Below, piece after piece: positions 1 to 63,030 of a stretch of DNA of 64,000 bases. Position 1 is the first letter of the stretch. Every line of letters starts with the position of its first letter. Location of the stretch: contig CAIZQH010000012.1 of the NCBI GenBank assembly GCA_903935095.1, positions 62,001 through 126,000 of the forward strand, written 5' to 3'. A program made the position numbers and the translations under genes. The notes under the pieces were generated by a model that worked only from the letters and a program-made list of their open reading frames with translations, had not been told where the DNA came from and did no database searches. This stretch comes from an uncultured Flavobacteriales bacterium. Lineage in GTDB: Bacteria; Bacteroidota; Bacteroidia; Flavobacteriales_D; Crocinitomicaceae.

Positions 1-45
1 GCACAAAAATTATTAGCGATTAGTCTTGAAGGCAGCGTTGGTTAG
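1..45 (+). CDS. sufB: SufB C-terminus (partial, 5' end outside window)
   Basis: Reading from base 1 gives the last 14 residues and a TAG stop. They end in SLEGSVG, which matches the end of the Fe-S cluster scaffold protein SufB (E. coli SufB ends in LEGSVG). sufC begins 17 bp downstream on the same strand, the normal sufBCD order. SufB forms the SufBC2D scaffold that assembles Fe-S clusters in the cytoplasm. Only the tail is visible, so the call rests on this motif and on synteny. Confidence 0.85.
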   Translation, partial: AQKLLAISLEGSVG

Positions 46-62
46 AAAAGAAAATAGAAGAG

Positions 63-815
63 ATGATTAAAATTGAAAATTTACACGCAAGTATTGATGG
101 AAAAGAAATCCTAAAAGGATTGAATTTAGAAGTCAAAGCGGGAGAAATTCATGCGATAATGGGTCCAAACGGTGCTGGAAAAAGTACACTTGCAAGTGTT
201 CTGGCTGGACGTGAGGACTACGAAGTAACAGCGGGATCAATTGATTTCGATGGCACTGATTTGTTGGAATTGTCAACAGAAGATCGTGCACGTGAAGGAT
301 TGTTTTTAGCGTTTCAATATCCGGTAGAAATACCTGGTGTTTCGAATATCAACTTTCTTCGGACAGCCTTGAATGAGATTCGCGAATACAAAGGACAAGC
401 ACAAATTTCCGCAAAGGAATTTATGGCAATGGTACGTGAGAAATCAGCTATTGTTGAACTAGACAGTAAATTAGCTTCTCGCGCAGTGAACGAAGGCTTT
501 TCTGGTGGTGAAAAAAAACGCAATGAAATTTTCCAAATGGCAATGTTAGAACCGAAATTAGCAGTGTTGGATGAAACAGATTCTGGTTTAGATATCGATG
601 CCTTGCGCATTGTTGCAAATGGGGTGAACACCCTGAAATCGGATCAAAATGCAACCATCGTTATTACACATTATCAACGATTATTGGATTACATCATTCC
701 GGATTTTGTTCATGTATTGTATGACGGTCGTATTGTCATGACCGGCACAAAAGAACTCGCATTGGAGTTAGAAGAAAAAGGCTACGATTGGATTAAAGAG
801 TCAATTGACGCGTAA
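63..815 (+). CDS. sufC: Fe-S cluster assembly ATPase SufC
   Basis: 250-residue ABC-type ATPase of the cytoplasmic SufBCD complex, where ATP hydrolysis drives the conformational change needed for Fe-S cluster assembly. Walker A GPNGAGKST is near residue 34. The SufC-type signature FSGGEKKRNE is near 143, Walker B LAVLDETDSGLD near 165, and the H-loop histidine lies in IVITHYQR. There are no membrane segments, as expected for SufC. It sits between the sufB tail and sufD with short gaps and the same orientation, so it is cotranscribed with them. Length and motifs are those of a complete, active protein. Confidence 0.97.
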   Translation: MIKIENLHASIDGKEILKGLNLEVKAGEIHAIMGPNGAGKSTLASVLAGREDYEVTAGSIDFDGTDLLELSTEDRAREGLFLAFQYPVEIPGVSNINFLRTALNEIREYKGQAQISAKEFMAMVREKSAIVELDSKLASRAVNEGFSGGEKKRNEIFQMAMLEPKLAVLDETDSGLDIDALRIVANGVNTLKSDQNATIVITHYQRLLDYIIPDFVHVLYDGRIVMTGTKELALELEEKGYDWIKESIDA

Positions 816-2123: not shown

Positions 2124-2137
2124 TGAGCTAATATTTC

Positions 2138-3010: not shown

Positions 3011-3047
3011 TCTTGATGTTTATCTTCAATCAAATGATGGTGAACAA

Positions 3048-4622: not shown

Positions 4623-4649
4623 TTTTACTTTGTTTATTGTGTCGTTTGA

Positions 4650-5183: not shown

Positions 5184-5187
5184 TTGA

Positions 5188-5682: not shown

Positions 5683-5706
5683 TTTTTTTTAATTAAGTGT
5701 TAATAT

Positions 5707-5741: not shown

Positions 5742-5748
5742 ATCAGAA

Positions 5749-5988
<240 letters not shown>

Positions 5989-5995
5989 TTACTAA

Positions 5996-7105: not shown

Positions 7106-7142
7106 TAGCGATTCTTTAAGCGATTTTTAATTTTTTTTTTTG

Positions 7143-7172
7143 CAAAGTTAGGCAAACTTTCCAAAGAAACAA
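7143..7172 (-). promoter_or_regulatory. Bacteroidota-type promoter of the atp operon
   Basis: On the minus strand TTG (7170-7172) is followed after exactly 19 bp by TAACTTTG (7143-7150). This is a full match to the TTG-N19-TAnnTTTG consensus for the Bacteroidota housekeeping sigma factor. The predicted start of transcription is about 33 bases before the atpB ATG. The promoter lies in the hemJ-atpB gap, so atpB begins a new operon. Confidence 0.85.
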
Positions 7173-7189
7173 CTTATTTTTTGAACAAT

Positions 7190-7726: not shown

Positions 7727-7731
7727 GCTTA

Positions 7732-7739
7732 CAAAAGTA
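7732..7739 (-). promoter_or_regulatory. TAnnTTTG -7 box for hemJ
   Basis: TACTTTTG on the minus strand ends 5 bases before the hemJ ATG. A clear -33 TTG is not seen at the normal distance. If used, transcription would begin at or next to the start codon. It abuts the -33 element of the divergent promoter at 7741-7769. Confidence 0.5.
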
Positions 7740-7740
7740 A

Positions 7741-7769
7741 TTGATTCACTCGGATTCAGGGTATATTTG
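7741..7769 (+). promoter_or_regulatory. promoter of the secreted protein gene at 7813
   Basis: TTG (7741-7743), an 18-bp spacer, then TATATTTG (7762-7769), a good TTG-N18-TAnnTTTG match. It shows that the real start codon lies downstream, at 7813, and that the upstream in-frame TTG is part of the promoter. Confidence 0.75.
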
Positions 7770-7812
7770 TATTTTCGTTTCCAAATATTTTGCGAAGCAA
7801 TCCATTTTAAAG

Positions 7813-8625: not shown

Positions 8626-9029
8626 TGAAACGCATTGAACACCTTGGAATAGCCGTAAAGAATTTAGAAGAAGCCATCCCCTTGTATGAGGCGCTATTAA
8701 ATACGCCTTGTTATAAACGAGAAGGTGTTTCATCCGAAGGCGTAATGACCGCATTTTTTCAAATCGGCGAATCTAAAATCGAATTGTTAGAAGCAACAAA
8801 CGAAACGTCTCCTATAGCTAAATTTTTGAGTAAAAATGGACCTGGATTTCACCATGTAGCATTTGAAGTTGAAAACATAGAAGCCGAAATAAATCGACTT
8901 CAGAACGCTGGATTCCAACTCATTCACGAGGTGGCTAAAGCTGGAGCCGACAATAAGCACATTGCCTTTTTACACCCAAAATCTACCGGATCCTTACTGG
9001 TGGAAATATGTCAGGAAAAAAGCGCGTAA
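8625..9029 (+). CDS. mce: methylmalonyl-CoA epimerase
   Basis: 134-residue vicinal-oxygen-chelate (glyoxalase fold) protein. It has the paired beta-alpha-beta modules of the family, with metal-ligand candidates in EHLGIAV, PGFHHVAFEV and GSLLVEICQ. It interconverts (2R)- and (2S)-methylmalonyl-CoA between propionyl-CoA carboxylase and the B12-dependent mutase. The start ATG overlaps the preceding stop by one base. The 3' end overlaps the convergent HAD gene by 19 bp. Confidence 0.9.
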   Translation: MKRIEHLGIAVKNLEEAIPLYEALLNTPCYKREGVSSEGVMTAFFQIGESKIELLEATNETSPIAKFLSKNGPGFHHVAFEVENIEAEINRLQNAGFQLIHEVAKAGADNKHIAFLHPKSTGSLLVEICQEKSA

Positions 9030-9622
9030 AAAGCTGCCTCATCCTGATAATAAAACGTTTGTAATCCTGCTTCTTTTGCTCCTTGAATGTGTTGTGGACT
9101 ATCATCGATGAATAAAACATCCTTTGGCAAGACATTTAATTGCATAGAAACCCAAAGAAAGGTTTCTGGATGTGGCTTTCGTTGATGAATGTTATGAGAC
9201 AGAAACACCTGTTCAAACAAAGACTCAAAAGGGACTTCACAAACCTTCTTCCATTCCTTCAATACTTGAATCATATGCAGTTCATTCGTATTGCTAAGTA
9301 AGGCCATTCGATGATTTTGAGAAAAATGCTGCAATAACTCCACCTTTCCTTTCGGAAAAGATTGAATCATCGCATTCCATGCATGAGCAACTTGGTTTGG
9401 ACTCGTCCCTTTTCGGGTGATCGTGAGTAATTTATTGATGAAATGCTGCACCGAAATTTGTCCAGTTTCGAAGGAGTCAAAGAGTTGGGTTTGCTGAAAT
9501 TGTGTGTATCGTTCTTGAAAGTCTTCCACGCCTAATTCGATGAACGCTTTTTCAGTTGCTTGATAATCAATATCTATCAGCACTCCGCCTAAGTCGAACA
9601 AAATGAGTTCTCTGTCTTTCAT
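9011..9622 (-). CDS. HAD-family hydrolase, subfamily IA
   Basis: 203-residue phosphatase-like protein. Motif I is FDLGGVLIDIDY with the nucleophile Asp in the usual hhhhDxGxVhxxxD form except that Leu replaces the second position. Motif II is LLSNTNELH. Lys in HQRKPHPETF and the acidic motif FIDDSPQHIQGA complete the HAD core. A small alpha-helical cap lies between motifs I and II (YihX-like group). It probably dephosphorylates a small sugar or nucleotide phosphate; the substrate cannot be read from sequence. It converges on mce with a 19-bp overlap. Confidence 0.88.
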   Translation of the reverse strand: MKDRELILFDLGGVLIDIDYQATEKAFIELGVEDFQERYTQFQQTQLFDSFETGQISVQHFINKLLTITRKGTSPNQVAHAWNAMIQSFPKGKVELLQHFSQNHRMALLSNTNELHMIQVLKEWKKVCEVPFESLFEQVFLSHNIHQRKPHPETFLWVSMQLNVLPKDVLFIDDSPQHIQGAKEAGLQTFYYQDEAAFYALFS

Positions 9623-9713
9623 AAGACGAAGATACTTTCTTATTGTGTTATTTGAATGAATTCTAAATAAACAAACATGACATTACCATGACAATACACC
9701 TTCATTGGGCATG

Positions 9714-9721
9714 TACTTTTG
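9714..9721 (+). promoter_or_regulatory. -7 box (TACTTTTG) of the hem operon
   Basis: TACTTTTG matches TAnnTTTG and ends 18 bases before the hemA GTG start. No good -33 TTG was seen at 17-20 bp. It is the only -7-like box in the gap between the divergent HAD gene and hemA. Confidence 0.55.
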
Positions 9722-9739
9722 TGATCAAAGCTACCGATT

Positions 9740-10972
9740 GTGTTGAAGGACTTACATATTATCGCATTTACGCATCGAAATTTAGACGTCAATAAAATTG
9801 GGTTGCTTCATATTGAACAAGAAGACCAGTTCGAACAACTAAGTCGCTTAAAAAATGAATTAGAACTGGATGAACTTCAGTTTTTGTCTACATGCAATCG
9901 TGTGGAAATCACCTTCGTCAAACAACACAAGTTAGATGCGGATTATGTTCACCAAATCCTTTCCTTGATTTATCCGAAATTAGTCCCCATTCAATTGGAA
10001 GAATTTGTGCATCGTGCAGAAACATACTCGGGTAATTCTGCGGTGAAACATGCCTTGTCTGTCGCATCATCGATTGACTCCATGATTGTTGGTGAACGCG
10101 AAATTATCACTCAAGTGCGCTTGGCCTTCGAACATAGTAGAGACTTAGGATTCACAGGGGACTTTATTCGCTTGTTGATGAAGCAAGTAATTCAGTGTGC
10201 CAAACAAGTATATACGGAAACATCAATTTCCACTAAACCAGTATCCGTGGTCTCTCTTGCATATCACCACATGAAAAAAATGAACATTCCAATGGATGCG
10301 CGCATTTTGATTGTTGGTGCAGGTGTGACAAATACAACCATGTGTCGCTTCTTGAAAAAACATGGATTCCGCAATTTCCATGTCTTCAACCGAACGCTTG
10401 AACGTGCAGAGAAATTGGCGGAAGAAATAAAGGGAACGGCATATGCTCTTTCCGAATTAGCGAACTTCGATAAAGGCTTTGATGTCATCATCACATGCAC
10501 TGCTGCGAAGCACCACGTGTTGACTCCAACATTGTATTCGTTTTTATTGCAAGATGAAACACATGAACGCGTAGTCATCGATTTAGCTATTCCGCAGGAC
10601 TTAGACGCTACTATATTAAATACACATCCGATAAATTATTTATCGATTGAATACCTGCAAAAGATTTCCAACGAGAACTTGAAAGAACGTTCCAAAGAAA
10701 TTTTACACGTGGAGCAAATCATTGCGGATTCCATGGAAGCATTTGAAAATTTATTCAAAGAGCGTAAAGTAGAAATCGCGATGAAGGATGTCCCGCAACA
10801 AGTAAAGGAAATCAAACACATGGCGTACGAGACGGTTTTTCGTGAGGACCTTGATCAATTGGATCCACATGCGAAAGAAGTACTTGACAAAATCATCGGT
10901 TACATGGAGAAAAAATACATCAGTGGCCCCATGAAATTAGCCAAAGAAATCATTTTAAAAAATGCAAACTAA
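9740..10972 (+). CDS. hemA: glutamyl-tRNA reductase
   Basis: 410-residue HemA, the first committed enzyme of C5-pathway tetrapyrrole synthesis (glutamyl-tRNA to glutamate-1-semialdehyde, NADPH-dependent). The catalytic Cys52 is in LSTCNRVEI. The GEREIITQVR block, the NADPH-binding ILIVGAGVTN near residue 190 and the C-terminal dimerisation helices are all present. The GTG start gives the normal N-terminus MLKDLHIIAFTHR; TTG at 9743 is an alternative. The stop lies 11 bp inside hemC, so hemA-hemC-hemD are coupled. Confidence 0.95.
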   Translation: MLKDLHIIAFTHRNLDVNKIGLLHIEQEDQFEQLSRLKNELELDELQFLSTCNRVEITFVKQHKLDADYVHQILSLIYPKLVPIQLEEFVHRAETYSGNSAVKHALSVASSIDSMIVGEREIITQVRLAFEHSRDLGFTGDFIRLLMKQVIQCAKQVYTETSISTKPVSVVSLAYHHMKKMNIPMDARILIVGAGVTNTTMCRFLKKHGFRNFHVFNRTLERAEKLAEEIKGTAYALSELANFDKGFDVIITCTAAKHHVLTPTLYSFLLQDETHERVVIDLAIPQDLDATILNTHPINYLSIEYLQKISNENLKERSKEILHVEQIIADSMEAFENLFKERKVEIAMKDVPQQVKEIKHMAYETVFREDLDQLDPHAKEVLDKIIGYMEKKYISGPMKLAKEIILKNAN

Positions 10973-11855
10973 TCCTAAAATCCGCATTGGGACACGCGGT
11001 AGTGACCTCGCTCTATGGCAAGCTCATTTCGTTCGTCGACAATTGGAAGAAATTGGATGTGACGTGAGTATTCAAATCATTGTCACGCAAGGAGACCGTA
11101 TTCAAGATTTGAGTTTTGATAAACTAGAAGGGAAAGGATTTTTCACTAAAGAAATTGAACAAGCCTTATTAAAGGGTGAAGTTGATTTAGCGGTACACTC
11201 ACACAAGGATTTAGAAACGACACAGCCGGAAGGATTACACATCGCTGCTGTTTCTTACCGCGAAGATGCTTCCGAATTGTTGTTGATGCGCAAAAGCTCC
11301 ATGGACAGCTATCAACCTTGGTCCTTAAAACAGCAGGCCATTATTGGAACTTCCTCCGCGCGACGCAAAGCGCAAATTTTGGCTCAGCGTCCAGATTTGG
11401 AAATCAAAGAACTACGTGGAAATGTCCCAACGAGAATTGATAAACTGCGTCAAGGTCAATACGATGCCATCTTGTTGGCGCGTGCGGGCGTGCTCCGTTT
11501 GGAATTAGACTTGACGGATTTGGAAACCGTCGTTTTAGATCCTACTTCGTTCATCCCTGCGCCTGCTCAAGGAGTCCTTGGCCTTCAAACAAGAGTTGAT
11601 GATCACGTCTCGACAGAAATCCTTCAAAAATTGCACCATGCCGCTGTCGCAAAACGCATTGGACTCGAACGTTCCGTTCTTCGTCAAATGGACGGCGGAT
11701 GTCAATTGCCATTAGGTGTTTTCTGTGAAGGGAATCAGGTGTATGTTTCTTTTTCGAGATCATCCACACATGCAGCTACGAACTCCGTTTACGACTATGT
11801 AGAGGGAGAAGAAGTTGAACTTGCTCAACACATTGTTCAGGACTTAAAAAAGTGA
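10962..11855 (+). CDS. hemC: hydroxymethylbilane synthase (porphobilinogen deaminase)
   Basis: 297-residue HemC, which polymerises four porphobilinogens into hydroxymethylbilane. Family hallmarks are IGTRGSDLALWQ at the N-terminus, catalytic Asp83 in VHSHKDLET, the IGTSSARRKAQIL and LRGNVPTRIDKL blocks, and Cys247 in DGGCQLPLG, the attachment point of the dipyrromethane cofactor. It overlaps hemA by 11 bp and hemD by 4 bp. Confidence 0.96.
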   Translation: MQTNPKIRIGTRGSDLALWQAHFVRRQLEEIGCDVSIQIIVTQGDRIQDLSFDKLEGKGFFTKEIEQALLKGEVDLAVHSHKDLETTQPEGLHIAAVSYREDASELLLMRKSSMDSYQPWSLKQQAIIGTSSARRKAQILAQRPDLEIKELRGNVPTRIDKLRQGQYDAILLARAGVLRLELDLTDLETVVLDPTSFIPAPAQGVLGLQTRVDDHVSTEILQKLHHAAVAKRIGLERSVLRQMDGGCQLPLGVFCEGNQVYVSFSRSSTHAATNSVYDYVEGEEVELAQHIVQDLKK

Positions 11856-12535
11856 CTCCGAAAGCCATCTTTATTTCTCGATCAAGGGATCAAATAGGTT
11901 CCGCCTTGCGACAATTTGAAGCAAATGGAGGAGAACTTTATGCCCAATCACTCATTACTTTTGAAGGTGTAAAAATGGATGAGTTTTCTTCTTGTGAAGT
12001 AGTCTTTTTTTCGAGTATTCGAGCGGCTTCTTTCTTTTTTCAAGACCACGCCAAACCGAATGCACTATTCGCTTGCGCAGGTGCAGAAACAGCGCGAAAA
12101 CTGACGGATCAATTTCACATTGAGTGTGCTTACATTGCTGATGAAGCCGGGAATCCAACGCAAGCTGCAGTAGAATTTAAAGATTGGTTGAAAGATCGAA
12201 CGGCGCTTTTCCCTATGAGCGAACAAAGTTTACGCACCTATTCATCGCTCATTCCAAGGCAGCAAAAAACGGAACTTGTTGTCTATCGAACTTTGCCAAA
12301 TCCAATTGTTATTCCTCCTTGCGATTATTATGTATTTTCGAGTCCAAGTAATGTGCATGCTTTTTTCGAAATCAATGTACTTCCTATCCATGCCCGTTGC
12401 ATCGCTTGGGGACAATCCACCGAAACAGCTTTACGTGGTCATCAAACACCCATTTATTATTCTTTGAAAGATGGTTCCACCCTCGAGTTGGATGCATATT
12501 TACAAACACATGTTTTTCAAACCTTGGAACAGTGA
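11852..12535 (+). CDS. hemD: uroporphyrinogen-III synthase
   Basis: 227-residue protein with the two-lobed, weakly conserved HemD pattern: an N-terminal FISRSRDQIG segment, VVFFSSIRAASFFF, and later FSSPSNVHAFFE and IAWGQSTETALRG. These match the SNxxAV/ and GxxTAxAL-type motifs of the family. It closes hydroxymethylbilane into uroporphyrinogen III. The GTG start overlaps the hemC stop (GTGA) and its own stop overlaps the next GTG, so the four genes form one tight operon. The call leans on synteny as well as motifs. Confidence 0.85.
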   Translation: MTPKAIFISRSRDQIGSALRQFEANGGELYAQSLITFEGVKMDEFSSCEVVFFSSIRAASFFFQDHAKPNALFACAGAETARKLTDQFHIECAYIADEAGNPTQAAVEFKDWLKDRTALFPMSEQSLRTYSSLIPRQQKTELVVYRTLPNPIVIPPCDYYVFSSPSNVHAFFEINVLPIHARCIAWGQSTETALRGHQTPIYYSLKDGSTLELDAYLQTHVFQTLEQ

Positions 12536-13530
12536 AATTTGAATATACGGAAGCAATTACACCGGAACTGGTTCAGCTTTTGGAGCAAACCACTCTTGGA
12601 ACGAATGGTGCGATGTACCGACATTTAGATGTGCCAGAGCGCATTTATCAAACGGATTCTCCCTTGTGCTTTTCCTTACGAAGAAATGACCACTTGTTGG
12701 CGAACATTACCTTTTGCAAACGCGACTTTGGATTATATTTACGGTATTTCGCCTTCGATAAACGCTTTCAATCCAAAGGAAAAGCACGTCAAACCATCCA
12801 GAAATCTACATTAAAGCAGGAAATCGAGGAAGTTTTTAAGAACGTTTCAAAGGAACATCCTGGAACGATGAACATGTGTTATGCATTTATTGATGCACGG
12901 AATGCTCGAAGTAAATGGATGAGTGAGCAATTTGGATTTCAAACCAAAGCAAAACTGGCGACGCAAACCTTCAGCCGACGTTTTCCGAAAAAGTCAATGC
13001 GTATTTCGAAGGAAGTTCTGACACAAGAACATTTGTCACTCATCAAAAGTAAGTACGAGCAGTATACTGCGTATTTTGACCATTATTTGCATCAAGGTGA
13101 ACTTCATTGCCTTCGTTCGGCGGAAGGAACATTATTGGCGCTCGCAAAATTCACGAATGTCACCTGGGAAATAAGCCGCTTACCTGGGAAAATGGGAGGA
13201 TTTTTAGTGAAAGCCTTGCCTTTTATTCCCGTTTTAAGGAAAATGATTCAGCCCAAAAAACACCAATTCTTGGTTCCGGAAGCTATGTGTATATTGGAAA
13301 ATAATGCAGCGCTTTTAACGGAGTTTCTGTCTGGAGTGCTCTACATGCAAGAACGTCACACCATGCTCTGGTGGACCGATGAACGCGATGACTTATATGG
13401 CCAGGTAAAAAACAAGGTAAATTGGGGAATCTTGCACCAAATTTTGGGTGTCTCTCCTGTTGATGTGGTCGTTCGCGGAGCATTCGAACCGAAGGAACCA
13501 ATCTATGTGGCAGCCTTTGATATGATTTAA
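12532..13530 (+). CDS. unknown protein, possible GNAT-like fold, last gene of hem operon
   Basis: 332 residues from the GTG at 12532, chosen because it overlaps the hemD stop as GTGA, like the other junctions of this operon. An earlier in-frame start lies inside hemD. The middle region (NMCYAFIDARNARSKWMSEQFGF) resembles the end of a GNAT acetyltransferase core, where a neighbour helix precedes GF, but no acetyl-CoA-binding Q/RxxGxG loop was found. The C-terminal third has no recognisable motif. It may simply be cotranscribed with the heme genes; a direct role is not shown. Confidence 0.6.
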   Translation: MKFEYTEAITPELVQLLEQTTLGTNGAMYRHLDVPERIYQTDSPLCFSLRRNDHLLANITFCKRDFGLYLRYFAFDKRFQSKGKARQTIQKSTLKQEIEEVFKNVSKEHPGTMNMCYAFIDARNARSKWMSEQFGFQTKAKLATQTFSRRFPKKSMRISKEVLTQEHLSLIKSKYEQYTAYFDHYLHQGELHCLRSAEGTLLALAKFTNVTWEISRLPGKMGGFLVKALPFIPVLRKMIQPKKHQFLVPEAMCILENNAALLTEFLSGVLYMQERHTMLWWTDERDDLYGQVKNKVNWGILHQILGVSPVDVVVRGAFEPKEPIYVAAFDMI

Positions 13531-25448: not shown

Positions 25449-26597
25449 ATGAGAGTTACACTTAGAATGCGTCCATTAAAGACAGGCCGAATCAGCCTTT
25501 ACCTAGATCACTACCCACCAATTGTGCATCCAGAAAGTGGAAAAATTACCCGGTGGGAATACCTCGATATGTTTTTGTTTAGTCCGCCGCGAAATGAAAT
25601 GGAAAAACGTCATAACCGTGATATGGAAACCATGGCACGTTCGATAGCCTCCACAAGACAGCTTGATAGATTGGCGGGGAAATTTGGGATTAAGCGAAGT
25701 TCTCAGTTTGATGACTTCCTTCCATTTTATGAAAAACAAATGAATAAATGGGTGGGCAATCCAAATACACATGGGGGCTGGGTCGCATCCTATAAAACCT
25801 TTATTCAGTTTTGTAATGGGCACTGTAACTTTGGTGATATCACACCACAGTTCATCAATGAGTACAAGGAATTCCTACAGAAGAAAGCCACTCGAATCAA
25901 CTCACCTAAAATGCGCATTTCTGCCAATTCATGTTACACTTATTACAACAAACTGAGGGCAACAGTTCGTGAAGCAATGGTATATGGTCATTTGATCAGT
26001 AATCCCTTTGATGCTGTGAAGGGGATCCAACAACCAGAAACCTACCGAGAGTTTTTAACCAAAGAAGAATTGGTTAAACTTTACCATACGGATGCCGGCT
26101 CTGATGTATTGAAACGCACCTGTATGTTTTCTGCGTTAACAGGCTTGCGCTTGGGTGACGTCATCAAACTTCAAGGAGATCAAATTCAACATTCAGAAGG
26201 AATGGGCTATTTCATTCGATTTACACAAAGCAAAACCAAAGGGATGGAGACCTTGCCCATTTCAGATGAAGCCTTGAGTTTACTCGGTGATTTTGAAGTA
26301 AACCAGGCTCCCATTTTTGGGGAGTATCAATTCCAACGTGACTATGCAAATTTAAATAATTGGTTACTCAGAGCTGGAATTCGTAAAAAGATCACCTTTC
26401 ATAATTTCCGTCATACGTTCGCGACCTTACAACTAGCGGAAGGAACCGATATCTATACCGTTTCAAAATTACTTGGGCACAAGCATATTCATACCACTCA
26501 AATTTATGGTAAGGTGATGGATACAACGAAAACAAAAGCAATGAAAAGTATTCAATTGGGCATCAAAACTGACAACAAACAACAAGAAAACGAATAA
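25449..26597 (+). CDS. tyrosine recombinase (integrase)
   Basis: 382-residue phage-type integrase. An arm-binding and a SAM-like core-binding domain (FCNGHCNFGDITPQFINEYKE region) precede the catalytic domain. The catalytic residues are visible: Arg in ALTGLRLGDV, Lys in TQSKTKG, His and Arg in HNFRHTFATLQ, the second His in LLGHKHIHTTQIYG, and Tyr in QIYG. It belongs to the Bacteroidota island/ICE integrase group. Its position right after the mnmE end makes it the likely enzyme that inserted this element. Confidence 0.93.
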   Translation: MRVTLRMRPLKTGRISLYLDHYPPIVHPESGKITRWEYLDMFLFSPPRNEMEKRHNRDMETMARSIASTRQLDRLAGKFGIKRSSQFDDFLPFYEKQMNKWVGNPNTHGGWVASYKTFIQFCNGHCNFGDITPQFINEYKEFLQKKATRINSPKMRISANSCYTYYNKLRATVREAMVYGHLISNPFDAVKGIQQPETYREFLTKEELVKLYHTDAGSDVLKRTCMFSALTGLRLGDVIKLQGDQIQHSEGMGYFIRFTQSKTKGMETLPISDEALSLLGDFEVNQAPIFGEYQFQRDYANLNNWLLRAGIRKKITFHNFRHTFATLQLAEGTDIYTVSKLLGHKHIHTTQIYGKVMDTTKTKAMKSIQLGIKTDNKQQENE

Positions 26598-54548: not shown

Positions 54549-55436
54549 TTAACCAACAAAATTTAAAATTTCTATTTCTGCGAAGCTATATTTGTTATCT
54601 GAAACCATTTTGGGTTCATCACCGGGAAAGTAAAAAGCACTGCTGTCTTTAGTTAAATGCCCTTTCCATTTTCTCACGAATAATATTGCATTTTCATTTG
54701 AATTATTAAACTTTTGTTCCCAGGCGATACTGAAACTAAAGCCCTCACTTTTCAAAATAAATAAAGGCTTATGAACTTCCTTCTCTAGGCCAAAGTGAAA
54801 CTTCTTTTCTTGAAGTTTCTTGATTTTTTCTTCTATATCAGCAAACATATTCAAAACTTTTGTTTTTGCAACTTCTACAGCGTCAGGAGAGTTTAAATAA
54901 GACGTTCTTTTCGTTTGAAATTCTAATTCTTCATTTAATTTATCTGCTTGCTCCAAACTTTTTTCAAATAATGTTTTTTCAGGAAGCTCTTCAGTAGTAG
55001 CTAGTTTATCAAATCCCACTTCTAAATCTGCAAGTAAATTCCTTACTTGTTTAATAAAGTCATTTTCCTCTTGGGATTTGTCTTGTTCATTTGAATGATA
55101 ATGATAGGGTAGATCAATTTGTTTGTGAATGAACCCTTTTAATTTGTCAATGAGTTCGCTCTCTACTATTGGCATTATGCGTTTGCACAACGCTGTTGCA
55201 AAACCAATTTCTTGATTTATCCATTGTGTCGGAACTGAGTTTTTTGTCAAAATTGGAAGGACAATTTTGGAATGAATAATTCCGTCTGCAACTTTTTGAG
55301 CCAAAGGTTTTAATGCTTCACGATTTGAAGCAATTACAATCGGATAAAATTTAGCGCTACCTTCAAGTTCTTTAACGATCAGTGCAACTTTGTTTTTATC
55401 GAAGTCCGAATAACTTATAAATATTCCTTGTTTCAT
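54549..55436 (-). CDS. TIR domain protein
   Basis: 295 residues. The TIR domain has the box 1 strand KQGIFISYSDFDKNKV, then IHSKIVLPILTKNSVPTQWI and INQEIGFATALCKRIMPIV, where Glu in NQEIGFA occupies the catalytic position of NAD-degrading TIRs. Residues about 160-215 form a coiled coil. The C-terminal about 80 residues are a beta-rich region with no recognised fold, perhaps a sensor. It lies directly downstream of an attC-like site (55462-55597) and is the second unit of that array. Confidence 0.8.
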   Translation of the reverse strand: MKQGIFISYSDFDKNKVALIVKELEGSAKFYPIVIASNREALKPLAQKVADGIIHSKIVLPILTKNSVPTQWINQEIGFATALCKRIMPIVESELIDKLKGFIHKQIDLPYHYHSNEQDKSQEENDFIKQVRNLLADLEVGFDKLATTEELPEKTLFEKSLEQADKLNEELEFQTKRTSYLNSPDAVEVAKTKVLNMFADIEEKIKKLQEKKFHFGLEKEVHKPLFILKSEGFSFSIAWEQKFNNSNENAILFVRKWKGHLTKDSSAFYFPGDEPKMVSDNKYSFAEIEILNFVG

Positions 55437-55610: not shown

Positions 55611-56099
55611 TCATATTGGTTTAATTGTTTTCACAATATCGTCAATTTTATCAAACGGCAGGTTGCAAAGGAAGAAGTCAAGTATATTATGTTTTTTTTC
55701 GTTGCCTTCATTGAAAAGAAGTCGCATGTCAAAGCTCATTGGATAGGCAGTAAATTGTCTCCCTAACATTGTCGGTGCTTGTTCATAAGGGATTAAAGGG
55801 AAAAACTGAACTGTAACATTCTTTCTTGAACCACCTTCTAAAGTTTTTAATCTGTCGTTAAGTTGTCCTTTAAATAAAATTTCTTCGCTGAATCTCAAGA
55901 AGGACTTTGGTAAAGTTTGTTTCACCGTTTCGAGAATTTTCTCATCGAGAAAGTCGCCTTTTTGTGAGTTATAAACTTTAGGGTTGAAAGTCCTTAAATA
56001 CGGTAAATATCCTGTGAACCAATTCCATTCTGGCCCTTCAATTTGAATGACTTTTAAAACGGAAAATTCATTCATTGGTAAAACTTCAATTGCTGTCAT
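55611..56099 (-). CDS. protein of unknown function, last gene of the HEPN operon
   Basis: 162 residues, soluble. Segments such as FSVLKVIQIEGPEWNWFTGY and LGRQFTAYPMSFDMRLLF suggest an alpha/beta fold. I recognise no catalytic motif. It starts 11 bp after the TIGR02391 gene ends and stops 14 bp before the attC-like site, so it completes the first cassette-like unit. Confidence 0.5.
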   Translation of the reverse strand: MTAIEVLPMNEFSVLKVIQIEGPEWNWFTGYLPYLRTFNPKVYNSQKGDFLDEKILETVKQTLPKSFLRFSEEILFKGQLNDRLKTLEGGSRKNVTVQFFPLIPYEQAPTMLGRQFTAYPMSFDMRLLFNEGNEKKHNILDFFLCNLPFDKIDDIVKTIKPI

Positions 56100-56110: not shown

Positions 56111-56917
56111 TTAGCATCCTGTTTTTACGCATTTGTCAAGTGTTCTATGTAGCATCGAAGCAAGTGTTAAACTATCAAGTGCATCTTGTTCGTGAATAGT
56201 CCACTTAATTTTAGGGGCGTGTGCAGTAGTATTTCTAAACATACCGAAAAGTCCTTTGATTAAGTGCATAAATCCTTTGTGTTCACTTTCTTCGGATTCT
56301 GTCGTCAAAGTGTTAAATGCAAGTTTTGGATTTTTGAGTTGTCCAAGTCCAAAAGCTTTATCAACTAAGTCTGAACCGTCAATTGTCAAGCCTGATTTAT
56401 CGCGAATTTTGTCAGCAACACTTTTGGCTGCTTCAAATACTGCATGAAAATAATTGTCTTGTAAAAGTTCTGCTCTGCAAAACAATAGAACATCAGGGTG
56501 AACTTGTCTGTCTTTTAGTTTAACTTTTAAGTTGTCTGCCCGTTGCTGTGCTTCTGGAATTGTTTTGGCTTCTAGAACTTTCCGAAATTTTCCATTGTCA
56601 AGGAGTTCAAGTCCAATAAATAAAATTCGTTTGTTAATGTCCGTTCGGAATTGTTCAAATTGTTGGTGTTTGTCTGCGTATCGAACAGGACTCAGTGTTT
56701 TTTGGATAAAGATTAATACCTTATTTGATTCTTGGTTTTTGTTCTGATAATTAACAAATGCATTATAGAGTCGTTTCCATTTTGTAATTCCTGGGTCAGT
56801 ATCTGTAATTCCTGTCTGCGCCAAGTAATACTCGATTTGAGAACCAGTATTTTGGTTTCCAAGAACTTTACAAATGCTCTCTAAAGTCTCAGCTGATATT
56901 GGTCTTTCTTTAGGCAT
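56111..56917 (-). CDS. TIGR02391 (Ymh) family HEPN protein
   Basis: 268 residues. The C-terminal half matches the Ymh/TIGR02391 pattern: HAVFEAAKSVADKIRDKSG, LIKGLFGMFRNTTAHAPKI, DALDSLTLASMLHRTLD. FRNTTAH gives R-x4-H, the HEPN ribonuclease motif. The N-terminal half is helical and less conserved. These proteins occur beside restriction and abortive systems in many genomes; their target is not established. Overlap or near-contact with the genes on either side makes it the third member of a four-gene unit. Confidence 0.8.
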   Translation of the reverse strand: MPKERPISAETLESICKVLGNQNTGSQIEYYLAQTGITDTDPGITKWKRLYNAFVNYQNKNQESNKVLIFIQKTLSPVRYADKHQQFEQFRTDINKRILFIGLELLDNGKFRKVLEAKTIPEAQQRADNLKVKLKDRQVHPDVLLFCRAELLQDNYFHAVFEAAKSVADKIRDKSGLTIDGSDLVDKAFGLGQLKNPKLAFNTLTTESEESEHKGFMHLIKGLFGMFRNTTAHAPKIKWTIHEQDALDSLTLASMLHRTLDKCVKTGC

Positions 56918-56920: not shown

Positions 56921-57442
56921 TTAAGCAATCGGTTCTAAAAATTTCTGTCTTACAATTGGACTCAACTTTAGCCAATGATTAAGTATTTCAATTGAGTGTT
57001 TTAAGAGAATAAAATTTCTTGAAACATCTTCTTGATAGTTACCATTGAACTTTCCACCATGAAAAAGATTATTCCGAACATCTCTAATTGATAAGCTTAA
57101 TTTATTGATTAGAGGTTCATTCGGTTGAAACGGTCTTTCACGCCAGCCTAATTGATCATTTTCATAATTCTGAACTCTTGGTGGATGATTTGAAAGGCAC
57201 TCAATTGCAGTAATCAATATTTCAGGTCTTGGTTCATTGTCGAACGATTCCCGAATTGAGGCTGTAAATTTGCCCCAATTTGGACTGACTTTATTATTGT
57301 CACCATTTGCAAAACCTGCCGCTTTTAAAGCACATTCAAAACGTGAGAATGTAACAAAGAATTCATTAATTAAATTCTGTCCTTCAACAGTAATGCTTGA
57401 GTTTAGTCTTTTGATAAATGTCTTTGATGTCATTAGTTCCAT
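56921..57442 (-). CDS. HEPN-like protein
   Basis: 173 residues from the ATG at 57442; a TTG start would add three residues. The helical N-terminus (FVTFSRFECALKAAGFANGD) and SIRDVRNNLFHGGKFNG near residue 140 resemble HEPN proteins, with R-x4-H in RNNLFH. The pattern is closest to Apea-like or MAE-28990-like HEPN families. It is followed after 3 bp by the TIGR02391 gene, so two HEPN proteins are encoded side by side. Confidence 0.65.
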   Translation of the reverse strand: MELMTSKTFIKRLNSSITVEGQNLINEFFVTFSRFECALKAAGFANGDNNKVSPNWGKFTASIRESFDNEPRPEILITAIECLSNHPPRVQNYENDQLGWRERPFQPNEPLINKLSLSIRDVRNNLFHGGKFNGNYQEDVSRNFILLKHSIEILNHWLKLSPIVRQKFLEPIA

Positions 57443-57471
57443 GTTATGCAATAGTTGTAGGCACAGCTTTT

Positions 57472-58254
57472 TTAGTCCGCCCGCAATTTTAAATATGGCA
57501 TGTCGTACAATGTAGATTTTCTTATTTGTCCTGTATAACCTATTTTTTTAATGAGTGAAATGATTGAGTCCCCTCTTATTGGGTCTAAGCGGGGGTCAAG
57601 CACAAGTTCTTCAGCAAGTTCATTAAACAAGTGTTTGCTATCAAATGTGTAGCCGTGCATTGATATTTTTTGTTCCTTACCACGGTCATTATTACTAACA
57701 TAGAGTAATCTAACTTCGTCTTCGTGCATAAATGGTTTACGTTTTATTAATAAAGATTTTAATAAAACTTCCATTCCATTGTCAGACATTAGTTTTTTAA
57801 CGACCGTCTTTTCTTCATAGTATTTTTTTATTTCATCTTCTGTCCAGTAGAGTACTTTTCCTAAATAAAATTCGCCCCAACTAACACTGTTTTTCAAAAA
57901 CAGGTCAACCAATTTGCCGATTGTAGATTTCACTATTATTCCGTCTCTATTCGGAGCATACGCGTTCCATAATAAATATGATTCTTCAAGAAATGTCCAG
58001 CTTTGTATAAAAAAGTTCTCTAATTGCAATTCGCTAAAAGGATAATTTTCTGAGCCATCTTCTTTCCAAATTAATTGTTTCAAAAGGAACGCCTCAAATG
58101 TATCCTCGGAGTGTTTAGCCTTAAAAAGAAATAATTGGTTAGAATTTAGTGAGGTCAGAAATTTTTCAAGTGAAAACACTCGGTAAATAGGAGTAAAAAG
58201 CAAGTCGTCAATCGGTTTATCAAAATTGAGAATATTTACTGATTCTATTTTCAT
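57472..58254 (-). CDS. DUF2971 family protein
   Basis: 260 residues. DUF2971 features are IYRVFSLEKFLTSLNSNQLF at the start, WNAYAPNRDGIIVKS in the middle, and LLIKRKPFMHEDEVRLLYVS with the conserved E/D-E-x-R block. Its biochemical role is unknown; it is frequent in defence islands and as an integron cassette gene. First gene of a four-gene unit, about 115 bp downstream of the TAGATTTG promoter of leader C. Confidence 0.75.
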   Translation of the reverse strand: MKIESVNILNFDKPIDDLLFTPIYRVFSLEKFLTSLNSNQLFLFKAKHSEDTFEAFLLKQLIWKEDGSENYPFSELQLENFFIQSWTFLEESYLLWNAYAPNRDGIIVKSTIGKLVDLFLKNSVSWGEFYLGKVLYWTEDEIKKYYEEKTVVKKLMSDNGMEVLLKSLLIKRKPFMHEDEVRLLYVSNNDRGKEQKISMHGYTFDSKHLFNELAEELVLDPRLDPIRGDSIISLIKKIGYTGQIRKSTLYDMPYLKLRAD

Positions 58255-58675: not shown

Positions 58676-59629
58676 TCAAAGTTTAGGCAAGAACATGGCT
58701 ATTCTGGCTAGCACCTCTTCAAAATCAGGCTGACCGTTATAATATAGCTTTGAAGTGGATTGATAACGGGATTTGAATGATTCTCGAAATTCAGTTTCAA
58801 TTAATAACAAGGCGGGGTGTTCACGTAGTGGTATTTGCTTGTCGGCTCCTTTAATTCTTGCCGCTTTGTGTGCTAAGTATTCAGCACTACCGATGAATGA
58901 TTGGATGTCAGAATCACCCAATAAACAATATACATCATAGTATTGGCGCATAAAGTTTTTATCATCAGAAGCACCAGGATTGTCTTTGTTGCGGTATTTT
59001 CTGATGATCGTTTGCAGTTTTTCAATCAAGGTATAACCAGGATGATAGCATTGAACGCCAACGGCTGTATTGTTGATGTAATTACTGCTTGCATTTATTG
59101 AAACAAGGTGTTCCCAAATCCATGATGAAATATCGATTGGCTGATTGGGTGTTACTGTGTCAAAACCAGCCTCGAGTAAAATACCATCTTTAAGTCCTTC
59201 AAGTGTTGGTGTGTAACTTTGATAATACAAGCGAATTCCCCCGCTGCGGTATTTTTCGGGGTCATCAAAATCATGATCTCGCTTAATTTCAATAATTCCA
59301 TTAATTGAAAGTGATTTGGCGAGCACATCATAAAATTCTTTGCGTGCCGCTCTTACTTTGGGTTTATCTTCTTTTCCTTCGATTTCTAAACCAAAATTGG
59401 TTCGTATGTGAATGTCGATGTCCTCTGAAAAGCGATGAATTAAGCCAAATCCTTTCGATAACGAAGTGCCTCCTTTCAATTCAAACTCAATTCCCTGTTG
59501 TTGCATGGAAAACAACGCATGCATGATCCAATAGTCCTTCTCAATTAATGTAATATCAATTCCTTTTTTCGAGGATACGATGGAGAGAAGTTCCTTGAAT
59601 TCCGGGTCGTTATGAATAAAATCAAGCAT
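58676..59629 (-). CDS. abiEii: AbiEii-type nucleotidyltransferase toxin
   Basis: 317 residues of the AbiEii/AbiGii nucleotidyltransferase family. Motif I is LKGGTSLSKGFGLI and the catalytic acid pair is FSEDIDIHI. Later HPGYTLIEKLQTIIRKYRNK and FMRQYYDVYCLLGD are the family's helical motifs III and IV. Known AbiEii toxins transfer nucleotides (GTP-binding, or CMP on tRNA in MenT relatives) and stop growth, causing abortive infection. It overlaps abiEi by 8 bp. Confidence 0.9.
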   Translation of the reverse strand: MLDFIHNDPEFKELLSIVSSKKGIDITLIEKDYWIMHALFSMQQQGIEFELKGGTSLSKGFGLIHRFSEDIDIHIRTNFGLEIEGKEDKPKVRAARKEFYDVLAKSLSINGIIEIKRDHDFDDPEKYRSGGIRLYYQSYTPTLEGLKDGILLEAGFDTVTPNQPIDISSWIWEHLVSINASSNYINNTAVGVQCYHPGYTLIEKLQTIIRKYRNKDNPGASDDKNFMRQYYDVYCLLGDSDIQSFIGSAEYLAHKAARIKGADKQIPLREHPALLLIETEFRESFKSRYQSTSKLYYNGQPDFEEVLARIAMFLPKL

Positions 59630-60203
59630 GTTGCAGTACGTTTCTAACGATGGATTTTAAAGTCCGCTTTGTTTTGCCTGTTCCATATTGTTGAGTAGCC
59701 TTCATCAACACATCCGTATCGAAATTGCGTACATTGGATGGTAATTTATATACAGCATAGATTTGATCTTCCGCTAGGGTATCTAAATTATTTAATAAAT
59801 CAACGAGTAAATATTCCCTGGAGATATGTTTAGGGAAAGCGGATTTTAGTTTGAACTCAAAGGTTTTTCCATTTAGTTGAAACTCCCCTTTACGCTTATG
59901 GTTGTAAACCCATGTGGTATTGTAAAGCTGGGTTAGCCCAAGCCCTAATGAATTAAAAGTATTTGGGGAAACCAAAAGAAAATCGTCGTCCTTCAGAAAA
60001 CGTTCTACTACTTGACGATCATCCGGTGGAACAGCCCCAAATTTAGATTGCTTTGGCGCGTAATACAAGCCCTGGTTCAATTTCTCCAATGTTCCGTCTT
60101 TAGTAAGCGTCGCTAAATGCCGATCTATGGCCGTGGAATAATATTCCAGGTCAGAACGGCGATATACTTCACCTTGCTTTATATGTTGACGGAGTAGTTC
60201 CAT
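59622..60203 (-). CDS. abiEi: AbiEi-type antitoxin
   Basis: 193 residues, DUF6088/AbiEi type. The N-terminal winged helix (YRRSDLEYYSTAIDRHLATL ... LNQGLYYAPKQSKFG) binds DNA in this family and represses the operon. The C-terminal domain (FEFKLKSAFPKHISREYLLV ... KATQQYGTGKTKRTLKSI) blocks the toxin. First gene of the pair, with palindromes and a TACATTTG box just upstream. In AbiE (type IV) systems antitoxin and toxin do not form a stable complex. Confidence 0.85.
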   Translation of the reverse strand: MELLRQHIKQGEVYRRSDLEYYSTAIDRHLATLTKDGTLEKLNQGLYYAPKQSKFGAVPPDDRQVVERFLKDDDFLLVSPNTFNSLGLGLTQLYNTTWVYNHKRKGEFQLNGKTFEFKLKSAFPKHISREYLLVDLLNNLDTLAEDQIYAVYKLPSNVRNFDTDVLMKATQQYGTGKTKRTLKSIVRNVLQHA

Positions 60204-60230: not shown

Positions 60231-60570
60231 TTTTGAAATGCATGTAAAAAAAGGAAAAAATCATGCAGATTGGATTACAAGTAGAATTTGCTCAGAACAA
60301 ATGTGGGAGTGAAAAGGTACGTTTAGAAAAGCGATCAATAAAATAGTGCATTGACGTCCGACCCTTTCAATCGGGAGTTATCTGCAAGTACTATTTATTA
60401 TAGCTTTAGAAAAAGATCCATTAAAGGTTGCTGGTGAGAATATTTTGGGAAGGGGAGTTACTGGATTCTGCCTATTAAGTGGATGAGGTATGCGTGCTGG
60501 GTAGAGGAACGGGGGACGATTCGAAACCACCCTAATTGAAGAACCATTGACATAAAACTGGCTTCGGAAT
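60231..60570. other. gap between abiE and the truncated attC-like site
   Basis: Non-coding, AT-rich, no recognised gene. It joins the upstream side of abiE to the truncated attC-like site at 60571, so it holds the breakpoint where the second half of that site was lost. Confidence 0.5.
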
Positions 60571-60614
60571 GTGAAACTCTCCTTTTGGGCAGGGTCTGTT
60601 ATAGGGCATTTTTC
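60571..60614 (-). repeat. truncated attC-like half-site
   Basis: The 44 bases match 55561-55604 of site 1 at 34 positions without gaps, including CTTTTGGG, CTGTTATA and the final TTTTTC. It lies 17 bp after the stop of the 60632 gene, the place of an attC. The complementary left half is absent, so the site is half lost. Confidence 0.65.
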
Positions 60615-60631: not shown

Positions 60632-61483
60632 TTAGTCTTCACCAAGCTGTTGTTTCCAAATATTTTGAATTTCTTTTTCAAAAGGTCTTTTGAATGAATA
60701 TGCTACATGAAATCCATCGTTACCTCTTTCAAACTCGTCCTTGTATATATTTATTCCTCGGAGCGTATATAAATATTCTTTGAAAGAGCCGTCTACATTT
60801 AATTCGTAGTCTTCAACACCATATATTGTAAAGTTGTTAATTACAAAATCTCCATATTGAAGTCCACCACCAACGCTGTTTACCTTGCCCTCTTTAATTA
60901 CTTGTCTAATTATGTGTAGCGGTGATAGACTTGTGTTTCCCTTGAATATAAGTTCTGCTTCATTATTACCACTTCCAAAAAATTCCATGCCGTTATTCAT
61001 TAATATTTCGTTATGGAAAGGTCTAATTGGATATGTAGATGTGTCACAGGAAAATTTAAAAACTCTAATGATATTTTTAATTGGGCAATAACCCGAAAGA
61101 ACTAATTCGCAAATTCCACCATTCTGAATAATTCCACCCAAGTCTAAAGTTGTTTTATTGAAAACCTTAAAAACCAAACCTGCTATTCCGTCCATTGAAA
61201 GGACAGTGTAACCTGGTATGTATTGTAAATTTTGCAAGATTTCATATACAGATTCTTTTACTGTGTAAGCGTTAATCGCACTTCCAACTACTCCAAGTCC
61301 AAGTTTGTAGTTGTAGTCAAGGTTTGTCATATTTGTTTCTGAACTTGTCGGGGAGTAAATTTTAATGGGAACTGAAAATATTTTTATTCCATAGTCAATG
61401 TGACCCGCTCTATCAAAACTTATTCTTGAGTCTGATGATAGCGAAATATGGTTATTCAGTCTATGTGCAATTACCAATGTCAT
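60632..61483 (-). CDS. proteasome beta-like Ntn hydrolase
   Basis: 283 residues, MTLVIAHRLNNHISLSSDSR at the start. Removing Met exposes a Thr. Counted from it, Asp is residue 17 (SSDSRIS) and Lys is residue 33 (YGIKIF), exactly the Thr1/Asp17/Lys33 triad of proteasome beta subunits and HslV. Further landmarks are LGVVGSAINAY, FFGSGNNEAEL and VNSVGGGLQYGDF, which resemble the G47, GSG and SGG motifs. It is about 60-100 residues longer than HslV or beta subunits, with insertions. A 4-bp overlap couples it to a HEPN-like gene. No unfoldase partner is nearby. Confidence 0.7.
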   Translation of the reverse strand: MTLVIAHRLNNHISLSSDSRISFDRAGHIDYGIKIFSVPIKIYSPTSSETNMTNLDYNYKLGLGVVGSAINAYTVKESVYEILQNLQYIPGYTVLSMDGIAGLVFKVFNKTTLDLGGIIQNGGICELVLSGYCPIKNIIRVFKFSCDTSTYPIRPFHNEILMNNGMEFFGSGNNEAELIFKGNTSLSPLHIIRQVIKEGKVNSVGGGLQYGDFVINNFTIYGVEDYELNVDGSFKEYLYTLRGINIYKDEFERGNDGFHVAYSFKRPFEKEIQNIWKQQLGED

Positions 61484-62121
61484 TTTTGTGGGGTGTTATT
61501 TAAATGTTCAATAAATTTTTTCAAAAGTCCTTCTATTGGCATTTCATCCATATCTTTCTTCATCTTTTTTGCTATTTCATAAATCCTTTCAGTGTCTTCA
61601 TCTGCTAGGTGTAAATAATAATTTTCTGTACGAGATACCACTTTGTCAAAGTCACGAAAGAAAACCCTCAACAATTGTAAAATATAGTCAGGAGACCAAG
61701 GATGTAGTTGTTTGTCCAAGTACGCAGAATAACCACTCGTTGAATTTTTAACTTTTTTGCCACCGTGAAAACCGATGTTGTGTCTGATTTTATTAATCGG
61801 TTCTTTTATTTTGTCCCAGTGGTCGAGAACTTCTTGTCTTACAACTTTTGCTCTTTCTGAAAGTTGGTCAACTGTTGGTTCAGTCGCTGTTATAAAATCT
61901 GTCCCGCTTGGGTCGAACAAACTATATAAATAAGAATAGTAAGTAATCAAGAGTGTATGAGTTGTCTGTTCCACAACAAATGGGTCATAGCAAGTAAATT
62001 CATCACCAACCTTAACTTCTCTTTTTAAAAAAACATTGTAAGCTGTCCATATTTCAATTATCCGTCCAAATCTATGGCGGAGCAAAAAAATTTCTTCGGT
62101 CTCTTGAATTATCTGTTTCAT
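61480..62121 (-). CDS. HEPN-like protein partnered with the Ntn hydrolase
   Basis: 213 residues from the ATG at 62121; the longer frame begins with TTG inside the attC-like site and is rejected. The protein is helical. INKIRHNIGFHGGKK gives R-x5-H, the HEPN ribonuclease spacing, and the overall layout is similar to AbiU2-type HEPN proteins. The stop overlaps the start of the proteasome-like gene (ATGA). A paired RNase-like and protease-like module is unusual. Confidence 0.6.
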   Translation of the reverse strand: MKQIIQETEEIFLLRHRFGRIIEIWTAYNVFLKREVKVGDEFTCYDPFVVEQTTHTLLITYYSYLYSLFDPSGTDFITATEPTVDQLSERAKVVRQEVLDHWDKIKEPINKIRHNIGFHGGKKVKNSTSGYSAYLDKQLHPWSPDYILQLLRVFFRDFDKVVSRTENYYLHLADEDTERIYEIAKKMKKDMDEMPIEGLLKKFIEHLNNTPQK

Positions 62122-62142
62122 AGCTTGTATTTTAAAATATCC

Positions 62143-62281
62143 TGTAACGACCGGCAGTCTGGCTTTCGCCCAGATTTCGGTGTATAAAACTGTTCGATAC
62201 AAAACAAAAGTTGATGTGAGGTAGATTGTTCAATTAACTACGTCATCTGCCATTGAGCCAAACGCCAGTTAGCGGCTGGGC
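62143..62281 (-). repeat. attC-like recombination site 2
   Basis: Arms at 62143-62180 and 62247-62281 pair through TAAC/GTTA, GGC/GCC, TGGCT/AGCCA and a terminal CAG/CTG, with mismatches between. On the minus strand it reads GCTAAC ... GTTACAG and starts 21 bp after the stop of the HNH gene. Total 139 bp, close to site 1 (136 bp). Confidence 0.55.
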
Positions 62282-62301
62282 TATTTTTCGTTTTACGTCC
62301 A

Positions 62302-63030
62302 TTAGTCAACATGTCCCGCTGATTTAACAGTGTTTTCAATAAATTCTTTTCGGAACTGTTCAAGTTTGTCCTTGATTGAGTTGTCGTGAGGATTGTTTGC
62401 TAAATGTGCCTCATAAAATTTTATTCTCATTTGCTCAATTAAAACTCTCGCCGTTGTCATATGATTAGGGAAACCAATATTAAAAGTTTCCCAATATTTG
62501 TCCCTATCGGCTTTGTCAAATGAAGAAAACAAATTGTCCAAAGATTGTAATGATGAGTGAAGCTCATTGTTTAACTCATCATAAGATGCTTGAGTATTAA
62601 TGTCAATTTTTAACTCAGGAACAACATGTTCGGTTGTATGAACAACTTCAACTCTTTTCCAATATCCCTCTGTTTCTTTGCGTAATGAATAAATATGGGA
62701 CATGTCAACAACCATCGGGGATAAGATGTATTTTGCTTCATGTTCTATTTTCATTTGTTTAAGAAGAGCCGCCGTGTAAGTTTTCTCATCATTTGTTTCG
62801 GTGTGATGCTCATAGCACATAAACATTATGTTTCCGTAGCTATTTATTTCTTCGTTTGATAACTTGGGATTATGTCTTTCTCCTTTTACACCTTCAATGT
62901 GGCACAACTGTGCAATAAATTCAAATCGTTGATTGAAAAGAGGTTTTTTACAACCAGGGAAAGCACATTTGTTTCCTGACCGTGCCAAAAGAGTTTTGTA
63001 AACCTGTCTGGGTATAGTTCTATTAGCCAT
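62302..63030 (-). CDS. HNH endonuclease
   Basis: 242 residues. The N-terminal HNH domain has zinc ligands CAFPGCKKP, the first His in LCHIEGVKGERHNP, and SYGNIMFMCYEHHTETND with the second Cys and HH pair. The C-terminal 150 residues are helical without a recognised fold. It overlaps the unknown gene 63023 by 8 bp, so the two act or are made together. HNH proteins of this type cut phage or foreign DNA in several defence systems. Confidence 0.85.
   Translation of the reverse strand: MANRTIPRQVYKTLLARSGNKCAFPGCKKPLFNQRFEFIAQLCHIEGVKGERHNPKLSNEEINSYGNIMFMCYEHHTETNDEKTYTAALLKQMKIEHEAKYILSPMVVDMSHIYSLRKETEGYWKRVEVVHTTEHVVPELKIDINTQASYDELNNELHSSLQSLDNLFSSFDKADRDKYWETFNIGFPNHMTTARVLIEQMRIKFYEAHLANNPHDNSIKDKLEQFRKEFIENTVKSAGHVD

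Follow-up and report, generated by a model that had tools for sequence, protein, structure and literature searches.

The window analysed here is a 64,000-nucleotide stretch of a contig from an uncultured Flavobacteriales bacterium. Two of its genes lie on the reverse strand in close succession: P0002 (61480-62121) and, downstream of it, P0001 (60632-61483), which share 4 bp. P0001 has a Met-Thr N-terminus and carries Thr1, Asp17 and Lys33, numbered from the Thr, together with a GSG and then a GGG turn, and P0002 contains an R-x5-H motif (R113-HNIGF-H119). All of these elements, the 4-bp overlap included, had been called in a first-pass annotation of the DNA and were found again here. The features are listed below in window coordinates, with the evidence for each in brackets.

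60632..61483, minus strand: P0001, predicted proteasome-like Ntn hydrolase, 283 aa (ORF, homologues, AF2 model, fold matches)
61478..61480, minus strand: Thr1 codon (residue 2), predicted nucleophile once Met is removed (15/15 aligned proteins; model alignment to chain residue 1)
61430..61432, minus strand: Asp17 codon (residue 18) (15/15 aligned proteins)
61382..61384, minus strand: Lys33 codon (residue 34) (15/15 aligned proteins)
61283..61285, minus strand: Gly66 codon (residue 67) (invariant in alignments A5 and A6)
60968..60976, minus strand: GSG turn of P0001, residues 170-172, or 169-171 counted from Thr (sequence)
60863..60871, minus strand: GGG turn of P0001, part of a GGxxQ motif, residues 205-207, or 204-206 counted from Thr (sequence, alignment A5)
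61480..62121, minus strand: P0002, 213 aa, upstream of P0001 with a 4-bp overlap; HEPN by motif only (ORF, motif)
61765..61785, minus strand: R-HNIGF-H motif of P0002, R113-H119 (motif search)
62134..62290, minus strand: possible degenerate attC-like site upstream of P0002, ending CGTTACAGGATATTTT (aligns with four attC-like sites of locus L012)
60598..60612, plus strand: GTTATAGGGCATTTT, attC-like end just 3' of P0001 (only copy in the window's 2.48-Mb genome)

Searched alone, P0001 matched nothing in Pfam, NCBIfam, PADLOC or the PDB sequences. The only library tried that recognised P0001 itself was PHROGs, through phrog_16034 (5.8e-14), a phage family without function. Because phrog_16034 also matches 6 of 13 members of the P0001 family, the two probably belong to the same family. 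Profile PF00227 gave no match to P0001 and weak matches to 2 of 13 family members (best E 0.0037), and phrog_1040, annotated as 'peptidase HslV family', likewise matched 2 of 13 weakly (best E 0.011). Within the window's genome PF00227 found nothing at E <= 0.1; of 14 control genomes, 11 gave at least one match to this profile. Without a significant PF00227 match, P0001 is thus a divergent relative by fold and not a Pfam member by sequence. HslV entries in the PDB gave a non-significant match (E 0.66-0.78) in register at Met-Thr and GSG, and hmmsearch paired the GSG turns of the two proteins only at a domain i-Evalue of about 140-160, a very weak match.

Structure prediction placed the protein more clearly. 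An AlphaFold2 model built from an alignment of eight sequences (pLDDT 79.8, pTM 0.83) runs in the order four strands, two helices, four strands, two helices, strands. Foldseek returned 431 PDB matches at E <= 1e-3, and the best 50 of the 431 were all proteasome chains. The comparison suggested in the first-pass annotation revealed an alpha-beta-beta-alpha Ntn sandwich in the model, so that a different fold, named there as a refuting outcome, did not occur. VIA-align matched the model to the M. tuberculosis proteasome (Z 17.5, 202 residues, 3.2 A) and to Anbu (5nyw_J, Z 16.4). In several VIA rows model residue 2 falls on chain residue 1 (for example 1q5q_H, 2..275 on 1..224).

The model also bears on whether P0001 might, like connectase, ligate or process proteins instead of degrading them. 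Its strands at 35-43 and 55-66 are joined by a loop (44-54) that is shorter in some relatives, so that the strand-3/strand-4 hairpin of P0001 is longer than theirs, and this hairpin is where connectase carries its specificity insertion in the published description (PMC8665760). The modelled hairpin lacks a two-helix insertion, however, and the model retains H1 and H2, which that description gives as absent from connectase (PMC8665760), making a connectase-like role very unlikely.

Conservation singles out the same residues as the fold. We compared 15 aligned proteins, comprising the 13 rows of alignment A5 (P0001 among them) and two further homologues, L030 and L031, added in A6; they span four phyla and many are only 17-28% identical. 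Thr, Asp and Lys are constant in all 15 and account for three of the ten invariant columns in A5, and loss of any of the three in homologues, set beforehand as evidence against the assignment, was absent. Such constancy marks these residues of P0001 as more than a chance occurrence. One Gly each of the GSG and GGG triplets (mature G169 and G205) is invariant across both alignments. The loops between the triad residues differ in length, so that Asp falls at mature positions 17-22 and Lys at 33-38 among the aligned proteins. The exact proteasome/HslV spacing of 1/17/33 emphasized earlier therefore describes P0001 itself but is not a general trait of its relatives. The model fold and the conserved triad together strongly support the proposed identity of P0001 as a proteasome beta-like Ntn hydrolase, and on both grounds we rejected the idea that its likeness to the proteasome is accidental. 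The triad together with the Gly66 loop points to a competent active site, in which Gly66 is possibly the oxyanion-hole Gly, by analogy with proteasome Gly47, and from which we infer peptidase activity.

We then considered P0002 and the proposal that the two genes form a toxin system, in which P0002 would be a HEPN RNase degraded or released by the Thr protease P0001. The 4-bp overlap suggests translational coupling, and RHNIGFH fits the published HEPN rule as described, Rx4-6H with N, D or H after R (PMC3710099). Of 5000 shuffled versions of P0002, 763 (15%) contain R[NDH]x3-5H as well, and the motif is not clearly more than a chance occurrence. Pfam, NCBIfam and PADLOC gave P0002 no profile match that would support HEPN, its nine weak matches among PDB sequences include none that is a HEPN protein by name, and its single-sequence model is unusable (pLDDT 37). 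Searches for homologues of P0002 gave nothing in 298 other genomes of the order, nothing credible in 197 others of the phylum, a set that partly overlaps the first, and nothing in plasmid, phage or viral collections, a back-translated scan included. The one weak match among the phylum genomes, in G383 (L034), falls in an ATP-synthase region, has stops inside it and was dropped.

Neighbouring genes at other loci were informative about this pairing. The closest P0001 homologues, at loci L012 (82% identical) and L013 (80%), do not lie beside a HEPN-like gene and instead neighbour a 230-aa protein and a uracil-DNA-glycosylase-like protein (PF03167, 3.4e-07). Across 18 Ntn loci (the window and 17 others), a plausible HEPN gene, judged mainly by motif, adjoins the Ntn gene at three: the window, L011 and L030. 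In L011 it carries RNLLAH and lies 67 bp upstream (Apea-HEPN only E 0.17, CARF_HEPN 0.0083); in L030 one gene with RNEVIH lies 45 bp downstream and another with RNTFSH is divergent, both by motif only. Although these adjoining genes favour a toxin system, their products show no similarity to P0002, and both gene orders occur among the three loci. Four more loci have a neighbour within 1.5 kb with a bare R[ND]x3-4H motif: L015 (a CBASS cyclase), L004 (an ATPase-like protein), L022 (a CBS-domain protein) and L018 (a doubtful frame). We counted none of these as HEPN, and 7 of 107 control ORFs have the motif too. P0002 has no detectable family, and the pair is not kept at the closest homologues. 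The search for a conserved Ntn-HEPN pair in other genomes gave none, and we rejected such a pair on the grounds that neighbours differ at L012 and L013 and that the candidate HEPN proteins are mutually dissimilar. A two-gene toxin system is very unlikely, and P0002 is probably a local neighbour of P0001, not a fixed partner. In the open-access literature we found nothing linking such a hydrolase to HEPN or to phage defence.

What the window does share with L012 and L013 is the hydrolase gene alone. By blastn it is 78.9% and 78.4% identical to L013 and L012, respectively, and only from window position 61490 to 60648; similarity starts 7 bp before the ATG and stops 16 bp short of the end of the P0001 gene. 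In L012, from Chryseobacterium caseinilyticum, the Ntn gene stands alone between attC-like imperfect hairpins, and the DNA fold z values of four attC-like sites are -2.54, -5.00, -1.83 and -2.40. The surrounding DNA (L012 1-3692) is an array of attC-like sites and small genes, with four sites in 3.7 kb. Three genomes, about 9.6 Mb in total, hold 4 copies of the 15-mer GTTATAGGGCATTTT, the one next to P0001 in the window among them; every copy flanks the Ntn gene or the gene adjoining it, and a reversed control pattern has 0 copies in the same genomes. The attC-like site upstream of P0002 is only suggestive, since 62140-62284 folds no better than shuffles (z 0.09). We detected no hairpin in the flank at 60500-60612 (z 1.76), and the L013 flank also folds no better than shuffles (z 1.31). 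Given window flanks without a fold signal, set against the GTTATAGGGCATTTT copy and the alignable site, a P0002-P0001 two-gene cassette is possible only. No integron integrase scored above the TIGR02249 cut-off in the genomes of the window, L012 and L013, which gave weaker recombinase matches only. Elsewhere in the window, 26352-26537 is part of a 386-aa frame that resembles tyrosine recombinases and is a possible integrase of the island.

Other copies of the Ntn gene sit on conjugative plasmids, and two viral contigs, which we read as prophages, carry it near tail genes. The gene seems to travel alone on mobile DNA. Homologues of P0001 occur in Bacteroidota (Chlorobiaceae included), Pseudomonadota, Actinomycetota and Bacillota, and their distribution is rare and patchy: the order has the gene in 3 of 299 genomes (E <= 0.001; one of these matches is partial and has internal stops), the class in 5 of 395 and the phylum in 3 of 395, with the window's own genome counted each time. 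Four weak partial Ntn matches were dropped before counting, three with stops inside (L003, L008 and L009) and one without a Met-Thr homologue among its listed frames (L007), and plasmid matches H7, H9, H12 and H13 stand outside the loci inspected. Several further searches were unproductive: phage records for three family members (tblastn, no match), back-translated scans with P0001, viral contigs with alignment A3 and with the L019 protein, E. coli DNA with the Enterobacter gene, and plasmid DNA with the window gene. Among E. coli genomes, 126 of 5426 contain an Ntn copy at least 99% identical, on chromosomes (for example L022, L023; L020). Two annotated E. coli copies that we viewed are a 576-bp hypothetical gene adjoining a recombinase gene, and in a third record the copy appears as two separate frames.

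In the window, an AbiE pair and three other genes within 5 kb of P0001 match defence families. Directly downstream lies an AbiEi/AbiEii type IV toxin-antitoxin pair (58676-60203; PADLOC 4.3e-79 and 1.1e-66). Further along are a PDC-S31 candidate defence protein (57472-58254, 1.4e-48) and a Hypoth_ymh protein with a PD-Lambda-3_B match (56111-56917, 1.3e-82); the latter gene is flanked by two frames (55611-56099 and 56921-57451) with no Pfam, NCBIfam or PADLOC family match. Farther out on this side, the N-terminal part of the protein at 54549-55436 weakly resembles a retron TIR protein (NCBIfam 7.8e-05, well short of the cut-off). On the other side, an HNH protein (62302-63030) matches CBASS/SAVED endonuclease effectors in its N-terminal part (1.4e-20). 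For the pair itself PADLOC found 0 families for either P0001 or P0002 (E <= 5), and the ten proteins scanned at 55.6-63.7 kb gave no AAA+ match, which agrees with the earlier view that neither a named defence system with this pair nor an unfoldase is present; HslUV was rejected for lack of that AAA+ match.

Defence genes recur at other Ntn loci. Neighbours include GajA/GajB (Gabija) and a type III enzyme at L014; a CBASS cyclase, a 2TM effector, a SLATT protein and RT_UG17 at L015; LeoA/LeoBC at L019; a type IIG RM enzyme at L011; a retron-type RT at L029; and LmuA with LmuB (Lamassu) at L030. At L032 (G380, 1582-12999) the Ntn homologue sits within a type I RM cluster that also holds a SatD-like protein and other extra genes, flanked to left and right by type I restriction and specificity genes. 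To put numbers on this, we counted PADLOC model matches at E <= 1e-25 among 111 neighbour ORFs of 16 loci (the window and L012 stand outside the 16) and among 101 ORFs in 12 random 11-kb regions from four of the genomes. Strong matches within 5 kb occur at at least 7 of the 16 loci, as well as in the window, and seven to nine of the 16 have none. At least 15 of 111 neighbour ORFs matched; in the control the figure was 4 of 101 or fewer (Fisher p 0.013). Test-set matches were traced among the best 25 of 141 matching families, and 15 is a lower bound because the PDC-M63B and PD-T7-5 matches come from untraced ORFs. Counted by locus, the difference between at least 7 of 16 and at most 4 of 12 control regions falls short of significance (p 0.44). 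The control, unlike the test set, contains no plasmids; neither sample is large, and ORFs from a single locus do not count as independent. The association of the Ntn gene with defence genes is suggestive and the excess over random regions modest.

These neighbourhoods raise two readings of what the hydrolase does. As an anti-phage effector, P0001 would act alone, be switched on by infection and cleave a phage or host protein. Strong defence matches near several of its relatives and in the window, the copies on viral contigs and the phage protein family phrog_16034 are all consistent with this, and despite the lack of significant enrichment at the level of loci we consider it a serious possibility, with the balance somewhat against it. 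Alternatively, P0001 could be a counter-defence or maintenance factor that removes host restriction proteins or toxins so that plasmids, prophages and islands persist. Its presence on conjugative plasmids and viral contigs and its cassette-like mobility would suit such a role; yet the gene is also chromosomal, and destruction of restriction proteins would be self-defeating for the L032 copy inside a type I RM cluster. We surmise that this reading is rather unlikely.

The broader account that we favour, and hold to be probable, is that P0001 is a stand-alone Thr hydrolase carried as mobile accessory cargo, perhaps for defence or stress. Methionine aminopeptidase removes Met1 when Thr follows. 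Because Thr follows Met1 in P0001, the same cleavage would be expected here, leaving Thr1 free with no propeptide needed. Lys33 and Asp17 would then activate Thr1, as the conserved triad and proteasome-beta fold suggest. No unfoldase or partner gene is constant in the loci examined, and P0001 thus probably acts alone, a trait in which we liken it to BPH and connectase and which sets it apart from HslUV. It may be a monomer or a small oligomer, and its substrates may be unfolded proteins or specific targets; with no partner constant, nothing fixes its target. The gene would spread on plasmids, prophages and attC-like cassettes and in defence islands. This mobile setting points to an accessory, conflict-related use, and P0001 could act in conflicts between cell and invader or under stress, for instance by cleaving a protein of the phage or of the host.

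Bacteria have many proteasome relatives without a known function, and the P0001 family offers a handle on them, being small, apparently self-contained, mobile and several times found beside anti-phage systems. We tentatively raise the idea, which on present evidence is more doubtful than our general account, that the family is a new class of effector, encoded by one gene and used against phages or by one element against another: a proteasome-like Thr protease that needs no unfoldase and is carried as cassette, prophage, plasmid and island cargo in at least four phyla. If so, proteasome homologues so far without a function would gain one. If protective, P0001 would be a proteasome-type protease serving bacterial immunity without an unfoldase.

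P0001 and P0002 were also compared with known systems. P0002 resembles HEPN toxins, including PDB 3jrt, which we take to be an integron-cassette HEPN, in its R-H-x4-H motif and possible attC-like flanks; it differs in having no profile match, and 3jrt is not among its nine weak PDB matches. HslV shares the Met-Thr start and, with P0001 itself, the triad spacing, but P0001 is about 100 residues longer and has no significant sequence match to it. Anbu shares the fold of the P0001 model; no Anbu sequence match to P0001 was found, and by the published description Anbu has a long C-terminal helix (PMC8665760), whereas the last helix of the model is short (269-280). The phage family phrog_16034, to which P0001 probably belongs, is given no function. 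Fuchs, Alva and Lupas surveyed 22 proteasome homologues of unknown function in 2021, and the proteasome-like proteins treated in that work include PMI, WPH, BPH and connectase (PMC8665760). According to their descriptions, PMI types are told apart by insertions, at H3/H4 in PMI-2 to PMI-6 and at S3/S4 in PMI-5 and PMI-6 (PMC8665760). The P0001 model has 5 residues between helices 173-182 and 188-198 (the H3/H4 numbering is our mapping), hence no long H3/H4 insertion, and an extended S3/S4 hairpin without helices, so that, compared by description only, it appears to fit no PMI type cleanly. Like P0001, the 2021 homologues have the Ntn fold and the Thr1/Asp/Lys triad, have neither a propeptide nor a known AAA+ partner and are in many cases rare and scattered, and the survey reports no genomic context suggestive of function for them (PMC8665760). 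Similar homologues were thus already described there without a function; what distinguishes the P0001 family, and is new here, is a lead on genomic context, with defence neighbours at several loci and mobile flanks.
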